DNA of 64,000 nt, from contig JAUNAB010000001.1 in assembly GCA_030527795.1 (NCBI GenBank), positions 1 through 64,000 on the forward strand. Direction: 5' to 3'. The first letter of the stretch is position 1. Every line of letters starts with the position of its first letter. Origin of the DNA: Pasteurellaceae bacterium. GTDB lineage: Bacteria > Pseudomonadota > Gammaproteobacteria > Enterobacterales > Pasteurellaceae. The notes under the pieces were generated by a model. The model saw only the letters and a program-made list of their open reading frames with translations, was not told the DNA's origin and searched no databases. Shown here piece after piece: positions 34,549 to 44,285 of the stretch. Made by a program: the position numbers and the translations under genes.

Positions 34549-36144
34549 ATGAAAATGTTAGAAGTTAAAAATTTAGATGTTTATCTGAAAACCGATGATG
34601 CGTTAGTTCACGCGGTAAGAAATGTGTCCTTTGATGTTGAAAAAGGACAAACGTTGGCGATTGTGGGCGAATCGGGATCGGGCAAATCCGTGACCTCAAT
34701 GTCCATTATGCAACTTTTGCCGAAAAATATTGTGACCTTTGGGGAAAATTCGTCAATTCTATTTGAAAATAAACAAATTCTTTCTCTTTCTGAGCAGGAA
34801 ATGCGTCAATTAAGAGGCGATCGAATTGGGATGATTTTCCAAGAACCGATGACTTCGCTTAATCCTTATATGAAAATTGGCGAGCAAATCGTTGAAGCGG
34901 TTAGAACACACAATCCCAAAATGAGCCAAAAAGATGGCGAGAAACGGGCATTGGAAATGCTCTTAAAGGTCAAAATTCCTGATGCGGAAAAGAAAATGGC
35001 GTGCTATCCACACGAGTTTTCTGGTGGGCAATTACAGCGGATTATGATCGCAATGGCAATTATTAATCAACCCGATTTGTTGATTGCCGATGAACCTACC
35101 ACAGCACTTGATGTCACGACTCAAGCAGAAATTTTGGATTTAATGCACGAGATCCAAGCGGATATGGGAATGGCTATTATATTGATTTCCCATGACTTGC
35201 GTTTGGTGCAAAAATACAGTGATGATGTTTGCGTTATGCAAAATGGACAAATTGTTGAGCGTGGCAATACGCAACAGGTGTTTAATCATCCGCAACACCC
35301 TTATACCATTGAGCTATTAACGCCAATTCCTGCTGATTTATGCCAACCAATTGATGAAAATGCCAAGAATTTAATTTCCGCAGAGTCATTAGAAATTGAT
35401 TACGTCTTGAAGCGAACACTGTTTGGTAAGCCTAAAAAAGTATTTAATGCAGTAAAAAATATTTCTTTACAGTTAAAAGCAGGTGAAACCTTAGGCATTG
35501 TTGGCGAATCAGGATCGGGCAAATCCACTCTTGGACGGGCAATTATGCAAATTATTGATTATCGCGGACAAGTGCATTTTGACGGGCATAATATCACCGT
35601 GTTATCCGATCAGGATCGCCAAGCCTTGAAAAAAGATATCCAAATGGTTTTCCAAGATCCCTTTAATTCGCTTTCGCCACGCTTAACCGTTGGTGAAATT
35701 ATCGGCGAAGGGCTAGCTGTGCATTATCCCAAAATGAGCAAGCAAGAACGCCGTGAAAAAGTGCTGAAAATACTGGAAGAAGTGAGCCTTTCGCCAAGTA
35801 TGATCAATCGTTATCCGCACGAGTTTTCAGGTGGTCAACGCCAGCGTATTGCGATTGCTCGTGCCATTATTCTAGAGCCTAAATTTGTGTTATTAGATGA
35901 ACCGACATCGGCACTCGATCGGTCAACGCAATTAACGGTGATTGAATTATTAAATAATTTACAGCGTAAATACGCGTTGAGTTATCTGTTTATTAGCCAC
36001 GATTTAGCGGTTATCCGAGCTTTAAGTAATCGTGTTATCGTGATGAACAAAGGCGAGGTGGTGGAAGCAGGCGAATCAAAACAAATTTTTGAACAGCCAC
36101 AAACCGACTACACCAAACGCTTGATCCAAGCATCTAATTTGTAA
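34549..36144 (+). CDS. Peptide ABC transporter, fused double ATPase (OppD-OppF type)
   Basis: A 531-residue protein with two complete ABC domains. The first has Walker A GESGSGKS at 40-47 and signature FSGGQLQRIMIAMA; the second has GESGSGKS near 319-326 and [14 protein letters not shown]. Fused peptide-transporter ATPases of this kind (YejF/GsiA/DdpDF-like) occur elsewhere, but H. influenzae opp carries separate oppD and oppF. There is no Cys-rich C-terminal tail such as standalone OppD/OppF often have. Ten bases after oppC; a terminator follows. Energises uptake through OppBC. Confidence 0.92.
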   Translation: MKMLEVKNLDVYLKTDDALVHAVRNVSFDVEKGQTLAIVGESGSGKSVTSMSIMQLLPKNIVTFGENSSILFENKQILSLSEQEMRQLRGDRIGMIFQEPMTSLNPYMKIGEQIVEAVRTHNPKMSQKDGEKRALEMLLKVKIPDAEKKMACYPHEFSGGQLQRIMIAMAIINQPDLLIADEPTTALDVTTQAEILDLMHEIQADMGMAIILISHDLRLVQKYSDDVCVMQNGQIVERGNTQQVFNHPQHPYTIELLTPIPADLCQPIDENAKNLISAESLEIDYVLKRTLFGKPKKVFNAVKNISLQLKAGETLGIVGESGSGKSTLGRAIMQIIDYRGQVHFDGHNITVLSDQDRQALKKDIQMVFQDPFNSLSPRLTVGEIIGEGLAVHYPKMSKQERREKVLKILEEVSLSPSMINRYPHEFSGGQRQRIAIARAIILEPKFVLLDEPTSALDRSTQLTVIELLNNLQRKYALSYLFISHDLAVIRALSNRVIVMNKGEVVEAGESKQIFEQPQTDYTKRLIQASNL

Positions 36145-36177: not shown

Positions 36178-36572
36178 TTTACCTATGATTTTCAGTCGGT
36201 GCGATATAAAAATAAGGTTTGAAAGTTAAAGGCTAGTTTTCCGATAACGACTCAAATTAAAAAAGGATTTTACCGCGGTTAAAAACAATTAAATTTTTGA
36301 CCGCGGTTTTTGTTAATTGAATAAGGAAAAGCCACGGATAAAATTCACAGAAAGGCTTTCATTGCTAGCAACTGAATGTGTATTTTACGCCTTAATCAGT
36401 ACAAAATAATTGCGATGGAAACTAGTGATCTCGGTCAGTTATTGCTTTAGCACATTTGCCGCGGCACAAAAAATGTGCGAAATTTTGACCGCGGTTTTTA
36501 AGTATTGGCATAATGGGGGAGGACAAGCTAAGTAGATTGAGAGGGTTCAACACAAAAAATAATAAAAAACAC
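36178..36572. other. Gene-free region between opp and dpp with two uptake-signal pairs
   Basis: No ORF is convincing. It contains an inverted pair at 36272-36311 (ACCGCGGTTAAAAA facing TTTTTGACCGCGGT) and a second at about 36458-36500, whose left arm is altered (GCCGCGGC) within a further CACATTT/AAATGTG repeat. These are terminator-like hairpins with no gene directly before the second, possibly relics of lost genes. Confidence 0.5.
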
Positions 36573-36601
36573 TTGCTTTCGTTCTATTTTTCTATTATGT
36601 T
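36573..36601 (+). promoter_or_regulatory. Probable promoter of the histidine leader / dpp operon
   Basis: TTGCTT (36573-36578), 17 bases, TATGTT (36596-36601). Transcription would begin near 36608, about 25 bases before the leader-peptide start, as expected for an attenuator. Confidence 0.45.
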
Positions 36602-36632
36602 GTAGAAAAATTATTTTGAAGCAAATTTAATT

Positions 36633-36677
36633 ATGACTTTTACACGCACTGTTCATCATCACCATTTACCTGAATAA
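36633..36677 (+). CDS. Histidine leader peptide (14 residues)
   Basis: An ATG ORF reads MTFTRTVHHHHLPE and stops. Four consecutive His codons (CAT CAT CAC CAT, 36654-36665) are the hallmark of his-operon leader peptides, where a ribosome stalling for lack of charged His-tRNA changes the downstream RNA fold. Here the ORF precedes a peptide-transporter gene cluster, not hisG. The pairing segments described in the attenuator entry support function. Confidence 0.85.
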   Translation: MTFTRTVHHHHLPE

Positions 36678-36776
36678 TCTTTCGGGCATTTGGTCGTGTT
36701 CGGAAGACTCTTCCGAAGCAGTGCGACAACACCTATTTAAACCTTTCGGAAGGCAACTTTTGAAAGGTTTTTTCAT
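36645..36776 (+). promoter_or_regulatory. Histidine-type transcription attenuator controlling the dpp operon
   Basis: Four segments give the classical switch. Segment A (36645-36651, CGCACTG, just before the His codons) pairs with 36719-36725; TTCGGAAG (36699-36706) pairs with B, CTTCCGAA (36710-36717). B also pairs perfectly with C, TTCGGAAG (36745-36752). C overlaps the left arm of the terminator, AAACCTTTC (36739-36747), which pairs with GAAAGGTTT (36762-36770) before six T (36768-36773). Ribosome stalling on the His codons would cover A, free B to pair with C, and prevent termination. The first structural gene starts 72 bp further on. Confidence 0.85.
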
Positions 36777-36847
36777 TTTCCCAGTCAATCTCGCTAACGA
36801 AGAGTTACGTGCAACCCATTTTTTCACTCTCAACATAGGATAAAAAT

Positions 36848-38440
36848 ATGAAAAAACGTACTTTAGTTGGCTTATTCGGCTTATTTACCGCGGTCAATTC
36901 TGTTGCTGAATCTAAGACTTTGGTTTATTGTAGCGAAGCTGCTCCGACAACCTTTAGTCCCACGTTAGCGATGGATAATGCCACAATGGATGCAACGGCG
37001 GAAACAATGTTTGATCGCCTTCTTTCATTCAAAGCAGGCACAACTGAGTTAATGCCGAGTTTAGCGGAAAGTTGGACAATTTCGCCAGATGGGAAATCTT
37101 ATACGTTTAAACTTCGTCAAAATGTAAAATTTCATTCTAATCAACAATTTAAGCCTAGTCGCAATTTTAATGCTGATGATGTGTTATTCACTTTTAATCG
37201 CCAATGGGATAAACAAAACCCGTATTATAAATTGGCAAATTATGAAATGTTTAATGCCATGGGAATGGCGGATTTGATTAAATCGGTTGAAAAAATTGAT
37301 GATTATACGGTGCGGATCTCTTTGAACCAGCCTAGTGCGCCTTTTTTAGCTAATCTTGCTACCAGTTTTATGTCTGTTCAATCAGCGGAATACGCGGATC
37401 AATTAGTGCGACAAAATCGTTTGCAAGATTTGGAACGCCAGCCTATTGGCACGGGACCTTTCCAATTTTATGGGTATCAACCTAATGCTGAGATTCGTTA
37501 CATTGCATTTCAGCAATATTGGCAGGGGCGTGCAAAATTGGATCGTTTAGTATTTTCAATTACGCCTGATGCATCGGTGCGTTTAGCTCGTTTAAAAAAT
37601 GGCGAATGCGATGTAATGCCTTATCCAAACCCGACGGATATCGATGACATTAAACAGGATAAAGCGTTGCAACTGTTAGCTAAGCCTGCGATGAATGTAG
37701 GTTATATCGCATTGAATATGGCGAAAGCGCCTTTTGATAATGTTAAAGTACGCCAAGCACTAAATTATGCTGTGAACAAAAAAGCGATTATTGATTCGGT
37801 GTATCAAGGATTGGCGAGCCAAGCTAAATCGCCGTTACCGCCTGTGGTTTGGGGGTACAATGAAAAATTGCAAGACTATGAATTTAATCCTGAAAAAGCG
37901 AAAGCTTTATTAAAAGAAGTTGGCTTAGAGAATGGTTTTGAAACAGAAATCTGGGCGATGCCTGTTTCACGGGCTTATAACCCTAATGCACGTAGAATGG
38001 CAGAGATGGTGCAGCAAGATTGGGCAAAAATCGGTGTAAAAGCCAAAATAGTGAGTTTTGAGTGGGGGGAATATCTTAATCGTATGTCTAAGGGCGAACA
38101 TTTTGCGGGTATGGCAGGTTGGAATGGGGATAATGGAGATCCTGATAATTTTTTAGCGCCTGCTTTAACCTGTGATACGATCGCAAGTGGAGAAAATTAT
38201 GCACATTTTTGTAATGCGGAGTATGACAAATTAATCAACCAAGCGGCTCAAGAGTTTGATCAAACTAAACGTGCGGCTTTGTATAAACAAGCTCAACAGA
38301 TTTTTGTTGAGCAAGCACCCTGGATTACTATTGCAAATTCAATTAGTTATATTCCATTAAGCAAAAAAGTGAGTGGCTATGTGCCGAGTGCGGTTGGATT
38401 ACATAATTTTTATTCGACCGACATTCAAACTGATAAATAG
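36848..38440 (+). CDS. dppA: Periplasmic peptide-binding protein, DppA-like (first copy)
   Basis: Family 5 solute-binding protein of 530 residues with a signal peptide of about 20 residues (MKKRTLVGLFGLFTAVNSVA) before ESKTLVYCSEAAPTTFSP. YCSEA is typical of DppA/HbpA (dipeptide or heme-binding) proteins; GDNGDPDNFL and the C-terminal FYSTDIQ are also of that type. It is the first gene after the histidine attenuator and precedes a second closely related binding protein and dppBCDF. An uptake-signal core lies inside the signal-peptide region (36886-36893). Dipeptide, histidine-containing peptide or heme are all possible ligands. Confidence 0.9.
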   Translation: MKKRTLVGLFGLFTAVNSVAESKTLVYCSEAAPTTFSPTLAMDNATMDATAETMFDRLLSFKAGTTELMPSLAESWTISPDGKSYTFKLRQNVKFHSNQQFKPSRNFNADDVLFTFNRQWDKQNPYYKLANYEMFNAMGMADLIKSVEKIDDYTVRISLNQPSAPFLANLATSFMSVQSAEYADQLVRQNRLQDLERQPIGTGPFQFYGYQPNAEIRYIAFQQYWQGRAKLDRLVFSITPDASVRLARLKNGECDVMPYPNPTDIDDIKQDKALQLLAKPAMNVGYIALNMAKAPFDNVKVRQALNYAVNKKAIIDSVYQGLASQAKSPLPPVVWGYNEKLQDYEFNPEKAKALLKEVGLENGFETEIWAMPVSRAYNPNARRMAEMVQQDWAKIGVKAKIVSFEWGEYLNRMSKGEHFAGMAGWNGDNGDPDNFLAPALTCDTIASGENYAHFCNAEYDKLINQAAQEFDQTKRAALYKQAQQIFVEQAPWITIANSISYIPLSKKVSGYVPSAVGLHNFYSTDIQTDK

Positions 38441-38598: not shown

Positions 38599-40199
38599 AT
38601 GAAAAACCTAACCAAACTCTCACTGATTGCGGCTGCATTAGCCGCTTCAACAACGGCAATAGCAGCGCCAAAAACATTTGTTTATTGTTTAGAAGTTCCC
38701 CTGCCACACTTAGCCCGCCTATTGGCACGGATGGAGCAAGTTTTGATTCTTCATCACGCACAGTCTATAACAAATTGATTGATTTTGCCGATGGCACAAC
38801 AGAATTAGCCCCTTCATTAGCAGAAAAATGGGATGTTTCAGAAGATGGGTTAACTTATACCTTCCATTTACGTAAAGGCGTGAAATTCCATTCCAATAAA
38901 GATTTCAAACCAACGCGTGAATTTAATGCGGATGATGTTTTGTTCACAATTAATCGTCAATTTGATAAAAATCATCCTTACTACAAAGTCTCAAATGCAG
39001 GCTATGAATACTTTACGTCAATGGATTTGCCAAATATTCTTGATAAAGTAGAGAAAGTTGATGATTATACAGTAAAAATCACATTGAAAAAGCAAAATTC
39101 GCCTTTCCTTGCAGATTTAGCGATGGACTTTATGTCAATTTTCTCCGCGGAATATGCTGATCAAATGTTAAAAGCGGGTACGCCTGAAAAAATTGATACT
39201 ATGCCGATCGGAACAGGTCCATTCCAATTTGTTGATTATCAAAAAGATTCAACGGTACGTTTCAAAGCCTTTGATGATTATTGGAAAGGTCGTGCAAAAT
39301 TGGATCGCTTGGTGTTCTCTATTACACCTGATGCGTCTGTGCGTTTAGCCAAATTACAAAAAGGCGAATGTCACGCAATTCCGTATCCAAATCCTGCGGA
39401 TATTGAAACCATTAAAAAGGATTCCGCAATTAATTTGTTGACTAAACCAGGCTTGAATGTCGGTTATATCGCGTTTAATGAACAGAAAAAACCTTTTGAC
39501 AATTTAAAAGTTCGCCAAGCGTTAAATTATGCAGTCAATAAAAAAGCCATTATTGATTCAGTGTATCAAGGTTCTGGTACGGTTGCGAAAAACCCAATTC
39601 CACCAACAATGTGGGGCTATAACGATAGCGTTCAAGATTATGAATACAATCCTGAAAAAGCCAAAGCGTTGTTAAAAGAAGCTGGTTTTGAAAAAGGATT
39701 CGATACGGATATTTGGGCAATGCCAGTTTCTCGCCCTTATAACCCGAATGCACGCCGTATGGCTGAATTAGTACAAGCGGATTTGAAAGCGGTTGGTGTT
39801 AATGTCAAAATCGTGAGTTATGAATGGGGTGAATATCTAAAACGTTTAGGTAAAGGTGAACATACCATTGCGATGGCAGGATGGAATGGCGATAACGGAG
39901 ATCCTGATAACTTCTTAAACTATTTGTTAAGTTGTGCAGGTGCGACTGATGGCGGTTCAAACTATGCGCGTTTCTGTAACAAAGAGTTTGATCAATTAGT
40001 AACGGATGCAGCGAAAGAAGTAGATCATCAAAAACGTGTTGAGCAGTATAAAAAAGCACAAGAGGTGTTCCATGCTCAAGCGCCTTGGATTACCGTTGCT
40101 CACTCAACGACCTATTTCCCAGTTCGTAAGGAAGTAAAAGGTTATGTAGTGAGTCCGTTTAGTATTCACGATTTCTACCCAGTAGATTTAGAAAATTAA
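38599..40199 (+). pseudogene. dppA: Second DppA-like binding-protein gene, frameshifted
   Basis: The ATG at 38599 begins a good signal peptide (MKNLTKLSLIAAALAAS...IAA) and APKTFVYC, but the frame then runs into 38 unrelated residues and a stop near 38776. From about 38694 the adjacent frame resumes the family sequence (SPATLSPPIGTDGASF...) to the stop at 40199, about 500 residues. Alignment with the first copy (YCSEAAPTTFSP) places the loss of one base at about 38692-38697 (GAAGTTCCCC). The rest looks intact and well conserved, so this is a very recent mutation or a sequencing error. It is about as similar to the upstream copy as a tandem duplicate would be. Confidence 0.85.
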
Positions 40200-40328: not shown

Positions 40329-41333
40329 ATGTTTCGATTTATTCTAAAACGTATTTTAATGGTGTTACCCACGTTCATTGCGATTACGTTATTGACCTTT
40401 GCCTTAGTGCATTTATTACCAGGGGATCCCATTGAAATTAGAATGGGTGAAAGGGGATTATCGCCTGAAGTGCATCAACAAATGATGCACCAATTAGGTT
40501 TGGATCGCCCATTGTATGAACAATATTTTAGTTATGTTAATGGGATTTTACACGGTGATCTTGGCAAATCATTCCGAAATAATGAGCCTGTATTAAAAGA
40601 GTTTTCAACACTATTTCCAGCAACGATTGAATTATCTTTTTTTGCCTTACTTTGGTCATTAATTTGTGGCACCATTTTGGGCGTGATTGCCGCGGTCAAA
40701 AAAGACAGTTGGATTTCTCATATTGTAACGAGCGTTTCATTGACGGGTTATTCAATGCCAATTTTTTGGTGGGGGCTTATTTTAATTATTTATGTCGCGC
40801 CAGTGCTTGGATTGCCTAATTCTGGGCGATTGCCGCCAGAAGTTTGGATTGATACTGATACAGGGTTTATGCTCATTGATACTTGGCGATCGGGAGAACC
40901 AGGGGCATTTTTGGCCGCGGTAAAATCGCTCATTTTACCTGCGATTGTATTGGGTACGATTCCCCTTGCGATTGTCACCCGAATGACGCGTTCATCAATG
41001 CTTGAAGTGCTAGGGGAAGACTATATTCGTACTGCGAAAGCGAAAGGGTTGAATACGACGCGAATTGTGATTGTTCACGCATTGCGTAATGCGTTGATCC
41101 CAGTGGTTACTGTGGTGGGGTTAATTGTCGGGCAATTATTGTCTGGGGCGGTACTAACGGAAACAATTTTCTCATGGCCAGGTATTGGTAAATGGGTTAT
41201 TGATGCGATTAATGCACGGGATTATCCTGTTCTACAAGGCTCGGTATTAATTATTGCGACGATTATTATTTTAGTTAATTTAGCCGTTGATTTATTTTAC
41301 GGGATTGTCAATCCGCGTATCCGCCATTCTTAA
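40329..41333 (+). CDS. dppB: Dipeptide ABC transporter permease DppB
   Basis: A 334-residue inner-membrane permease with six membrane segments and the long periplasmic insert typical of DppB (WIDTDTGFMLIDTWRSGEPG). The EAA loop is YIRTAKAKGLNTTRIVIVHALRN. The end FSWPGIGKWVIDAINARDYP is characteristic. Works with DppC and the DppD/DppF ATPases. Confidence 0.95.
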   Translation: MFRFILKRILMVLPTFIAITLLTFALVHLLPGDPIEIRMGERGLSPEVHQQMMHQLGLDRPLYEQYFSYVNGILHGDLGKSFRNNEPVLKEFSTLFPATIELSFFALLWSLICGTILGVIAAVKKDSWISHIVTSVSLTGYSMPIFWWGLILIIYVAPVLGLPNSGRLPPEVWIDTDTGFMLIDTWRSGEPGAFLAAVKSLILPAIVLGTIPLAIVTRMTRSSMLEVLGEDYIRTAKAKGLNTTRIVIVHALRNALIPVVTVVGLIVGQLLSGAVLTETIFSWPGIGKWVIDAINARDYPVLQGSVLIIATIIILVNLAVDLFYGIVNPRIRHS

Positions 41334-41401: not shown

Positions 41402-42292
41402 ATGTCTACAACTAACACCGCAGCCCCTGTACCGCTGTCGCCATTGCAAGAATTTTGGCATTATTTTCGCCAAAATCGTGGTGCAGTGATAGGTCTTGCG
41501 TTTATTGTAATTGTTATTATTGCAAGTTTATGTGCACACTGGGTTGCACCTTTTGATCCGATCGAACAAAATCGGGACGCATTATTATTGCCTCCAGCTT
41601 GGTTTGATGGGGGAAAAATGCCACATTTATTAGGTACTGATGATATTGGGCGTGATATTTTCTCGCGGATCATTTATGGCGCACGTTTATCTGTTTTTAT
41701 TGGTTTATTTATTGTCGTAATGTCTTGCATACTCGGTGTGATATTGGGTTTGATCGCAGGTTATCACGGCGGTTGGATCGATACAATGGTTATGCGTTTG
41801 GTTGATATTATGTTGGCGATCCCAAGTCTATTATTAACGATTGGGGTTGTAACAATTTTAGGGCCATCATTACTCAATGCCGCTATCGCGATCGCAGTCG
41901 TGTCTATTCCTAGTTATGTGCGTTTGACGCGTGCATCGGTATTAAGTGAACGTCATCGTGATTATGTTACGGCTTCGCGTGTCGCAGGAGCTGGTGTTTG
42001 GCGCTTAATGTTTATCGTGATTTTACCTAATTGTTTGGCACCCTTGATTGTACAAATGACAATGGGGATTTCTAATGCAATTTTAGAATTAGCAGCTCTT
42101 GGATTTTTAGGCATTGGTGCACAGCCACCTACGCCAGAGCTTGGCACGATGTTAGCGGAATCGCGTGGATTTATGCAATCATCAAACTGGCTAGTTACCA
42201 TTCCAGGTATGGCAATTTTATTTTTGGTTCTCGCGTTTAATCTGATGGGCGATGGTTTACGCGATGCACTTGATCCAAAACTCAAACAATAG
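41402..42292 (+). CDS. dppC: Dipeptide ABC transporter permease DppC
   Basis: A 296-residue permease. The N-terminus ([22 protein letters not shown]) and [20 protein letters not shown] match DppC; the EAA loop is [22 protein letters not shown], and it ends [14 protein letters not shown]. It lies 68 bp after dppB and eight bases before dppD. Confidence 0.95.
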
Positions 42293-42300
42293 GCGGAATT

Positions 42301-43305
42301 ATGGCATTATTAACAGTAGATCAACTTTCCGTCCATTTTGGTGATGAAAAATCACCATTTAAAGCAGTGGATCGGATAAGTTACCAAGTCAATGAAGGCG
42401 AAGTGCTTGGTATTGTAGGGGAGTCAGGATCAGGAAAATCCGTAAGTTCCCTTGCAATTATGGGATTAATTGATTACCCAGGACGTGTTATGGCACAAAC
42501 ATTGCAATTTAATGGCAATGATTTACTCGCACTTAAACTGAAAGAGAAGCAAAAAATTGTTGGTGCTGATGTATCAATGATTTTCCAAGATGCAATGACC
42601 AGTTTAAACCCAAGTTATACCGTTGGTTTTCAAATTATGGAAGCCTTGAAGGTGCATCAAGGGGGCAATCGAAAATGGCGTAAAGCTCGGGCAATTGAAT
42701 TATTAACGATGGTTGGTATCCCCGATCCAAGCTCTCGTTTAGAGGTTTACCCACATCAGCTTTCAGGCGGTATGAGCCAGCGCGTGATGATTGCTATGGC
42801 GATCGCTTGTAATCCAAAATTATTAATTGCCGATGAACCAACCACTGCGTTAGATGTGACTATTCAGGCACAAATCATTGATTTATTATTAGAATTACAA
42901 CGCAAAGAAAATATGGCGTTGATTTTAATTACTCACGATTTAGCGTTAGTGGCTGAATCTGCACACCGAATTATCGTTATGTATGCTGGGCAAGTTGTTG
43001 AAGAAGGGTGTTCGGATCAAATTTTCCATGCGCCATTGCATCCTTATACTCAAGCGTTACTCAAGGCATTACCTGAATTTACCGAAGGGAAATCACGTCT
43101 GCAATCTTTATCTGGCGTTGTACCTGGTAAATACGATCGACCGCAAGGTTGTTTACTCAATCCACGTTGTCCGTATGCCACGGATAAATGCCGTCAGATT
43201 GAACCTGAAATGAAAATCATAAATGGGCGACAAGTGAAATGTCATACCCCGCTTAATGAACAAGGTATCCCAACGCCATTAAGTCAACATTTGAGAGGTG
43301 AATAA
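42301..43305 (+). CDS. dppD: Dipeptide ABC transporter ATP-binding protein DppD
   Basis: A 334-residue ATPase with Walker A GESGSGKS near residue 40, signature [14 protein letters not shown] and Walker [13 protein letters not shown]. The C-terminal oligopeptide/dipeptide extension has spaced cysteines ([15 protein letters not shown]...KCHTP), a known Fe-S-binding pattern in DppD-type ATPases. Its stop overlaps the dppF start by one base. Confidence 0.95.
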
Positions 43306-44285
43306 TGCAAGAATTAGATCAAAACGCACCGCTTCTCAATGCGGTTAACTTAAAAAAATACTACCCAGTTAAAAAAGGAATGTTTGCCGCACAGAAAATG
43401 GTGAAAGCGGTGGATGGTGTTTCGTTCCAATTAGAGCGAGGTAAAACTCTAGCGATTGTAGGCGAATCAGGCTGTGGTAAATCAACCCTTGGGCGAATGC
43501 TAACGATGATTGAACGCCCGACGGAAGGGGAGCTGTTTTATAATGGGCAGAATTTTTTAGTTAATGATAGTGCAACACAGGCACTACGCCGTAAAAAAAT
43601 TCAAATTGTCTTTCAAAACCCTTATGCTTCGCTTAACCCGCGGAAAAAAATTGGCTCAATTTTAGAAGAACCGCTACTGATTAATACGGATCTCAAAGCA
43701 TCAGAACGCAAACAAAAAGTGCTAGATATGATGGCAAAAGTGGGATTAAAACCCGAATTTTACAATCGTTATCCTCATATGTTCTCAGGTGGACAACGCC
43801 AGCGGATTGCTATTGCACGTGGATTAATGCTACAGCCTGATATTGTGGTTGCGGATGAACCTGTATCGGCATTAGATGTTTCCGTGCGTGCACAAGTACT
43901 CAATTTAATGATGGATTTGCAAGATGAAATGGGCTTATCTTATGTTTTCATTTCTCACGATTTATCGGTGGTGGAACATATTGCAGATGAAGTGATCGTT
44001 ATGTATTTGGGACGTTGCGTGGAACAAAGTGATTGTAAAACCTTGTTTAATAATCCGCGTCATCCTTATACACAGGCTTTACTTTCTGCGACGCCTCGCT
44101 TAAATCCCGATCAACGCCGTGAACGGATCAAACTCACAGGTGAATTGCCGAGCCCATTAAATCCACCGAAAGGTTGTGCATTTCACGCCCGTTGCCATTT
44201 AGCCATAGAAAAATGCCGTGATAATCAACCGCAATTAAAAACCTATCCTGACGGTAGTAAAATTGCTTGTTTTATGGTGGAATAA
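43305..44285 (+). CDS. dppF: Dipeptide ABC transporter ATP-binding protein DppF
   Basis: A 326-residue ATPase: Walker A GESGCGKS, signature [14 protein letters not shown], Walker [13 protein letters not shown]. The C-terminal Cys-containing extension is present ([15 protein letters not shown]...IACF). Last gene of the dpp operon, followed by a strong terminator. Confidence 0.95.

Follow-up and report, generated by a model that had tools for sequence, protein, structure and literature searches.

A predicted his-type attenuator in front of Dpp peptide importer genes in Pasteurellaceae

Introduction

Ribosome-mediated attenuation of the his type is a textbook mechanism. The leader RNA responsible for it, Rfam family RF00514, precedes hisG in enterobacteria and their relatives. 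In a 64,000-nt stretch of a Pasteurellaceae genome (hereafter, the window) a leader of this appearance stands instead before genes for a peptide ABC transporter. Is this RNA a genuine his-type attenuator, and what would such a switch do in front of a peptide importer? A sequence-only reading of the window had proposed a His-type attenuator at this site and had offered two explanations, either the recruitment of an attenuator or the existence of a histidine-responsive peptide uptake system. Here we report a computational analysis of the leader, of the genes behind it and of corresponding loci in related genomes.

Results and Discussion

The leader belongs to the His_leader family

An Rfam scan of the entire window returned a single match, His_leader RF00514. 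The covariance-model match is full length (model positions 1–126), and its score exceeds the gathering cut-off (Table 1), as the sequence-only reading would lead one to expect. A chance match was rejected. The leader stretch folded far better than its dinucleotide shuffles (z −6.8, 0 of 200 shuffles). The match ends 72 nt before the start of dppA, the spacing given earlier.

The RNA has the parts that are expected of the family. Ahead of the A:B hairpin lies a short, putatively translated open reading frame with an ATG start, 14 codons and a TAA stop at 36675–36677; it encodes MTFTRTVHHHHLPE and contains the run of four His codons that had been read from the sequence. A U-tract intrinsic terminator precedes the first gene. 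Compared with leaders of the his operon, the window leader shares the His-codon peptide, the A:B, C:D and E:F hairpins with B:C and D:E as alternatives, and the U-tailed terminator. It differs in what follows: it heads a dppA-dppA-dppBCDF peptide importer cluster, the genome lacks both hisG and hisD, and no histidine biosynthesis operon lies downstream. That operon is the classical target and not part of the RF00514 RNA model, so the difference concerns the target and not the RNA family. The RNA is thus an ordinary RF00514 member with a known mechanism, and its dpp target appears to be new; in the open literature we came across no paper that places a His attenuator ahead of dpp genes.

Table 1. 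Features of the leader and of the genes behind it (positions in the window)
Feature	Position	Strand	Basis
Leader-transcript promoter (probable, predicted), TTGCTT-17 nt-TATGTT	36573..36601	+	same place as TTGC..-17-TATATT of relatives
Leader peptide ORF	36633..36677	+	sequence; same architecture in leaders of relatives
His_leader attenuator, Rfam RF00514	36653..36775	+	70.9 bits, cut-off 49, E 3.3e-9
Run of four His codons (CAT CAT CAC CAT), putative sensing site	36654..36665	+	sequence; 3–5 in other dpp-linked leaders
A:B hairpin, holds leader stop codon	36669..36686	+	folding; pairs kept in relatives
B:C antiterminator helix, 36678–36686 with 36699–36707	36678..36707	+	folding; no variation among 14 dpp-linked leaders; a single compensatory pair among 43 leaders
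C:D hairpin	36693..36727	+	−15.0 kcal/mol; core pairs retained at 99% across 14 dpp-linked leaders
D:E antiterminator helix, 36710–36718 with 36744–36752	36710..36752	+	folding; pairing in 96% of cells, with a single compensatory pair
E:F intrinsic terminator (stem 36739–36770) and U-rich tail	36739..36775	+	−16.7 kcal/mol; terminator scan; five pairs changed on both sides in dpp-linked leaders
dppA1, DppA-type family 5 solute-binding protein	36848..38440	+	closest PDB matches: dipeptide-binding DppA proteins; both clamp residues (Arg, Asp) retained
dppA2, second DppA-type binding protein, frameshifted	38600..40199	+	signal peptide and body in different frames; body matches E. coli DppA
dppB permease	40329..41333	+	NCBIfam best match
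dppC permease	41402..42292	+	NCBIfam best match
dppD ATPase	42301..43305	+	NF008246, 658 bits, cut-off 541
dppF ATPase	43305..44285	+	NF008453, 606 bits, cut-off 408

The ribosome-binding site of the window leader is weak (TGAAG, 11 nt from the ATG), while leaders of relatives have GGAG near the ATG; judged by sequence, leader translation could be lower here. The promoter listed in Table 1 was chosen by its correspondence to relatives, and a generic promoter scan selected another site, TTGACC-18-CATAAT at 36485–36514. The opp cluster upstream stops at 36144, with a terminator-like site of its own behind it at 36272–36307, so that the leader probably heads a separate transcription unit. An inverted repeat, TTGCTTT...AAAGCAA with TTTTTCTA/TAGAAAAA inside (36573–36624), spans the promoter and the leader ribosome-binding region; no such repeat was seen in relatives on inspection by eye.

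Folding is tied to ribosome position

Folding yielded the two mutually exclusive sets of helices that the sequence-only reading had described: the A:B, C:D and E:F hairpins, the last one being the T-tailed terminator, versus the B:C and D:E helices. The switch was simulated with transcripts truncated before the F arm, whose 5′ side was hidden as by a ribosome before the remainder was folded. When the RNA was free from 36670–36679, corresponding to a ribosome on His codons 2–4, about nine D:E pairs and 11 B:C pairs were obtained and C:D pairing was near zero. When it was free from 36685–36688, corresponding to a ribosome at the stop codon, 8.5 C:D pairs and zero D:E pairs were obtained. This contrast was reached in none of 500 shuffles of the segment 36678–36738. 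Free-energy folding of the full leader, with the F arm included, favoured the terminator form whether or not the ribosome was stalled. Because that form always wins once F is present, the switch should be kinetic, as in known attenuators. Folding and conserved pairs (see below) thus agree on a terminator and an antiterminator that exclude one another and depend on where the ribosome stands.

Leaders before dpp genes in related genomes

RF00514 leaders were detected by covariance-model search in 133 of 140 Pasteurellaceae genomes. Loci whose leader does not adjoin hisG were retrieved, and the genes downstream were classified. A His_leader was found to head a dppA gene or a dpp operon in 16 of the 140 genomes, from 10 of 43 genera, so that the placement before dppA, whose conservation the sequence-only reading had left to be checked, is indeed kept in relatives. 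Three arrangements occur. The order leader-dppA-dppA-dppBCD is found in the window genome (G000) and in G032, G055 and G086. In seven genomes (G047, G048, G103, G104, G135, G136 and G137) yuiF stands between the leader and dppA, with dppBCD behind where the contig reaches that far. In the remaining five (G049, G050, G090, G093 and G095) the leader is followed by a lone dppA; the one in G093 seems broken, its first ORF covering 220 aa and its pieces falling into different frames. As YuiF is described as a histidine permease (PMC9413887), the leader, the predicted permease and dpp are joined in one operon in four genera. Most Pasteurellaceae dpp genes carry no His leader, and no His-rich leader ORF was found near dppA at dpp loci without an Rfam match. 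A search for related loci in genome contigs returned just one distant Bacillus locus.

The dpp-linked leader peptides, which include MKFILNHHHHHLPE and MNRYVIKHHHHLPE, retain three to five consecutive His codons in all 16 cases, and the stop position and both structures are likewise kept in 16 of 16. On folding, all 16 leaders show the stalled-versus-stop contrast in pairing of the E arm, which is weakest in G095 and G137. Covariation was counted in the 14 distinct sequences among the 16, and in a wider set of 43 leaders of all targets. In the 14 sequences, five pairs of the terminator structure are changed on both sides, with 93% of cells paired; the antiterminator is 98% paired and has one compensatory pair, in D:E. 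The B:C helix is invariant in this set and is therefore uninformative on covariation. In the 43 leaders, eight pairs of the terminator structure and three of the antiterminator are changed on both sides. The structure outperformed all shuffles and slid versions both in cells paired and in covariation score. From these alignments we judge E:F to be strongly supported by covariation and the antiterminator modestly so; the best support for the latter is its conservation.

The distribution of leaders bears on the idea that the window leader is a neutral remnant, left by a lost his operon or a lost leader-yuiF unit and brought before dppA by deletion. The host genome no longer has hisG and hisD, and loss of yuiF from the arrangement seen in the seven relatives would produce that of the window. 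However, in prototrophs such as G032, G047, G048, G049, G050 and G095 a dpp-linked leader exists alongside a distinct leader of hisG, and a plain hisG-leader remnant was rejected. More widely, hisG was found in ten of the 16 genomes with a dpp-linked leader and not found in six (G000, G055, G104 and G135–G137). That the leader serves dpp with and without a his operon counts against a mere remnant, as does the conservation of its His codons, stop position and structures. The leader may descend from a yuiF-dpp unit, but such an origin would not make it non-functional. We regard decay of this kind as very unlikely.

An assembly join of a his leader to dpp, an objection raised with the sequence-only reading, is contradicted by the same comparison and can be considered extremely improbable. 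The site lies inside a contig of 314,713 bases, and independently assembled relatives have the same type of junction. The window leader is the only His_leader above cut-off in its genome; since this genome has neither hisG nor hisD, there was no his-operon leader available for misjoining. The RF00514 match and the occurrence of the leader before dpp in relatives together support the original reading of a His-type attenuator before a peptide transporter.

Histidine metabolism of the host

The host genome (1.95 Mb in 24 contigs, completeness 99.99%) was searched for enzymes of histidine biosynthesis. HisG (PF01634) and HisD (PF00815) were not found in it, and the organism is therefore predicted to be a histidine auxotroph, for which uptake is probably the sole source of histidine. 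HisG is missing from 36 of the 140 Pasteurellaceae genomes, a family thus containing many predicted histidine auxotrophs. The host yuiF gene is located on another contig, close behind another gene and without a leader. The genome encodes PepD, an aminoacyl-histidine dipeptidase (606.6 bits), which, to judge from its sequence, could release histidine from imported peptides. A regulator of the hut pathway is absent from Pasteurellales (PMC5343134), and this would fit uptake for protein synthesis rather than for breakdown.

The transporter genes and the reach of the switch

Behind the leader the genes follow in the order dppA-dppA-dppBCDF, so that the Dpp-type subunits are all represented (binding protein, two permeases, two ATPases), as claimed from the sequence; in this assembly, however, the second dppA is frameshifted. 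The signal peptide (MKNLTKLSLIAAALAASTTAIA...) and the body of DppA2 are encoded in different frames, with a break near 38685–38700 that reflects either a mutation (pseudogene) or a sequencing error. In gene order, subunit families and DppA clamp residues the cluster resembles E. coli DppABCDF, from which it differs by the two tandem dppA genes, by the His attenuator in front and by the divergence of DppA1. DppD scores above its NCBIfam equivalog cut-off and DppF above its subfamily cut-off. The best NCBIfam matches of DppA1, DppA2, DppB and DppC are in Dpp families but fall below the equivalog cut-offs; with 704 (DppA1) and 803 bits (DppA2) versus 1005 for the DppA equivalog, the ligand of the E. 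coli protein cannot be transferred to the window proteins. DppA1 and DppA2 keep both clamp residues for the peptide termini, an Arg and an Asp that are mutated in PDB 8z1z.

The attenuator might also work with a cargo that is not a histidine source, the importer taking up another ligand (glutathione, heme or a metal complex) and being merely co-regulated with histidine status. Family 5 binding proteins have many ligands, a Pasteurellaceae paralogue of DppA became the glutathione binder GbpA (PMC3295651), and DppA1 misses the DppA equivalog cut-off. The window proteins share the fold and the family of GbpA and HbpA2 (PMC3295651), which are DppA paralogues, and the score of DppA1 is 636 against E. 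coli DppA, compared with 618 against GbpA (3M8U). Yet a separate GbpA is encoded on another contig (C5; 998.6 bits to 3M8U) and a tree puts both window proteins on the DppA side; DppA1 as the glutathione binder was rejected. The residue Asp408, named in dipeptide binding, is replaced by Arg in HbpA2 (PMC3295651), unlike in DppA1 and DppA2, where both clamp residues remain. Also, the same leader serves dpp and the predicted histidine permease gene yuiF, within one operon in four genera. A non-histidine cargo appears to us unlikely on these grounds.

How far the control extends is a further question. The leader may control dppA1 alone, with dppBCDF expressed mainly from another promoter; the switch would then alter the supply of binding protein and the peptide preference, not the importer itself. 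We see this as a possible arrangement, if a doubtful one. It would agree with the five genomes in which the leader precedes a lone dppA, with the gap of about 160 nt between dppA1 and dppA2, and with the tree, where the DppA proteins encoded first in a tandem, sampled in 11 genomes, group in a supported clade of their own, seven of the 11 members being leader-linked. Against it, the leader of most among the remaining eleven genomes is followed by an operon-like run to dppBCD. The window DppA1 is a long branch, for which membership in the first-of-tandem clade is statistically acceptable but not established by the tree (p-AU 0.25).

A histidine-responsive peptide importer

Very probably, then, a ribosome-mediated his-type transcription attenuator has been redeployed onto a DppABCDF dipeptide importer, where it would raise peptide uptake as a histidine source. 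When charged tRNA-His is scarce, the ribosome would stall on the His codons of the 14-codon leader; B:C and D:E would pair, the terminator would be blocked and RNA polymerase would read into dppA, presumably continuing through all six genes in one transcript. With histidine plentiful, the ribosome would reach the stop codon and cover A and part of B, allowing C:D and E:F to pair, and transcription would end before dppA. Dpp transporters accept many dipeptides, so the switch does not imply specificity for histidine. Given relatives with the same wiring and a genome apparently unable to make histidine, these bacteria probably import peptides when histidine is short. The recruitment of an attenuator and a histidine-responsive uptake system need not be alternatives; the data fit both being true.

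Two general points follow. Where an attenuator specific for one amino acid is linked to a peptide importer of broad range, a physiological role can be predicted for the importer, and attenuators can outlive the biosynthetic operon they are named for. More tentatively, the tandem-first DppA duplicate of Pasteurellaceae may be a dedicated binder of His-containing peptides that is made only when histidine is short. It would then belong, with yuiF, to a histidine-scavenging peptide uptake regulon governed by one type of attenuator and persisting after loss of the his operon, a scheme that we regard as rather speculative.

Other targets of His leaders

Vitreschak et al. 2004 reportedly predicted control of yuiF by His attenuators in Pasteurellaceae. 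In our survey of the family yuiF is the commonest target other than hisG (about 50 loci). Its attenuators belong to the same RNA family as the window leader and follow the same logic, uptake being switched on at shortage; the window target differs in being an ABC peptide importer, and yuiF is absent from the window locus. Firmicutes also place histidine transporters under histidine-responsive control, with T-boxes specific for His and HisR sites ahead of hisXYZ and yuiF, but the sensing mechanism and the transporter families are different, and the study concerned did not find RF00514 in that phylum (PMC9413887).

In a sample of 296 genomes, most other families of the order have one leader per genome; in one family outside Pasteurellaceae, two His_leaders were found in each of six genomes. 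Four are present in G095, before hisG, before dppA, before yuiF and at one site without a clear target. Weak matches before ilvG in four genomes (34–36 bits) were discounted as cross-hits, since no His run is present in these leaders.

Further targets are hisD and hisC. A His_leader lies directly ahead of a split-off hisC at five loci in two genera. In four genomes of one of these genera an ORF, which from its sequence we take to be RhuM-like, begins 21–23 nt past the leader and ahead of hisC; by its position between the two, it would be under histidine attenuation as well.
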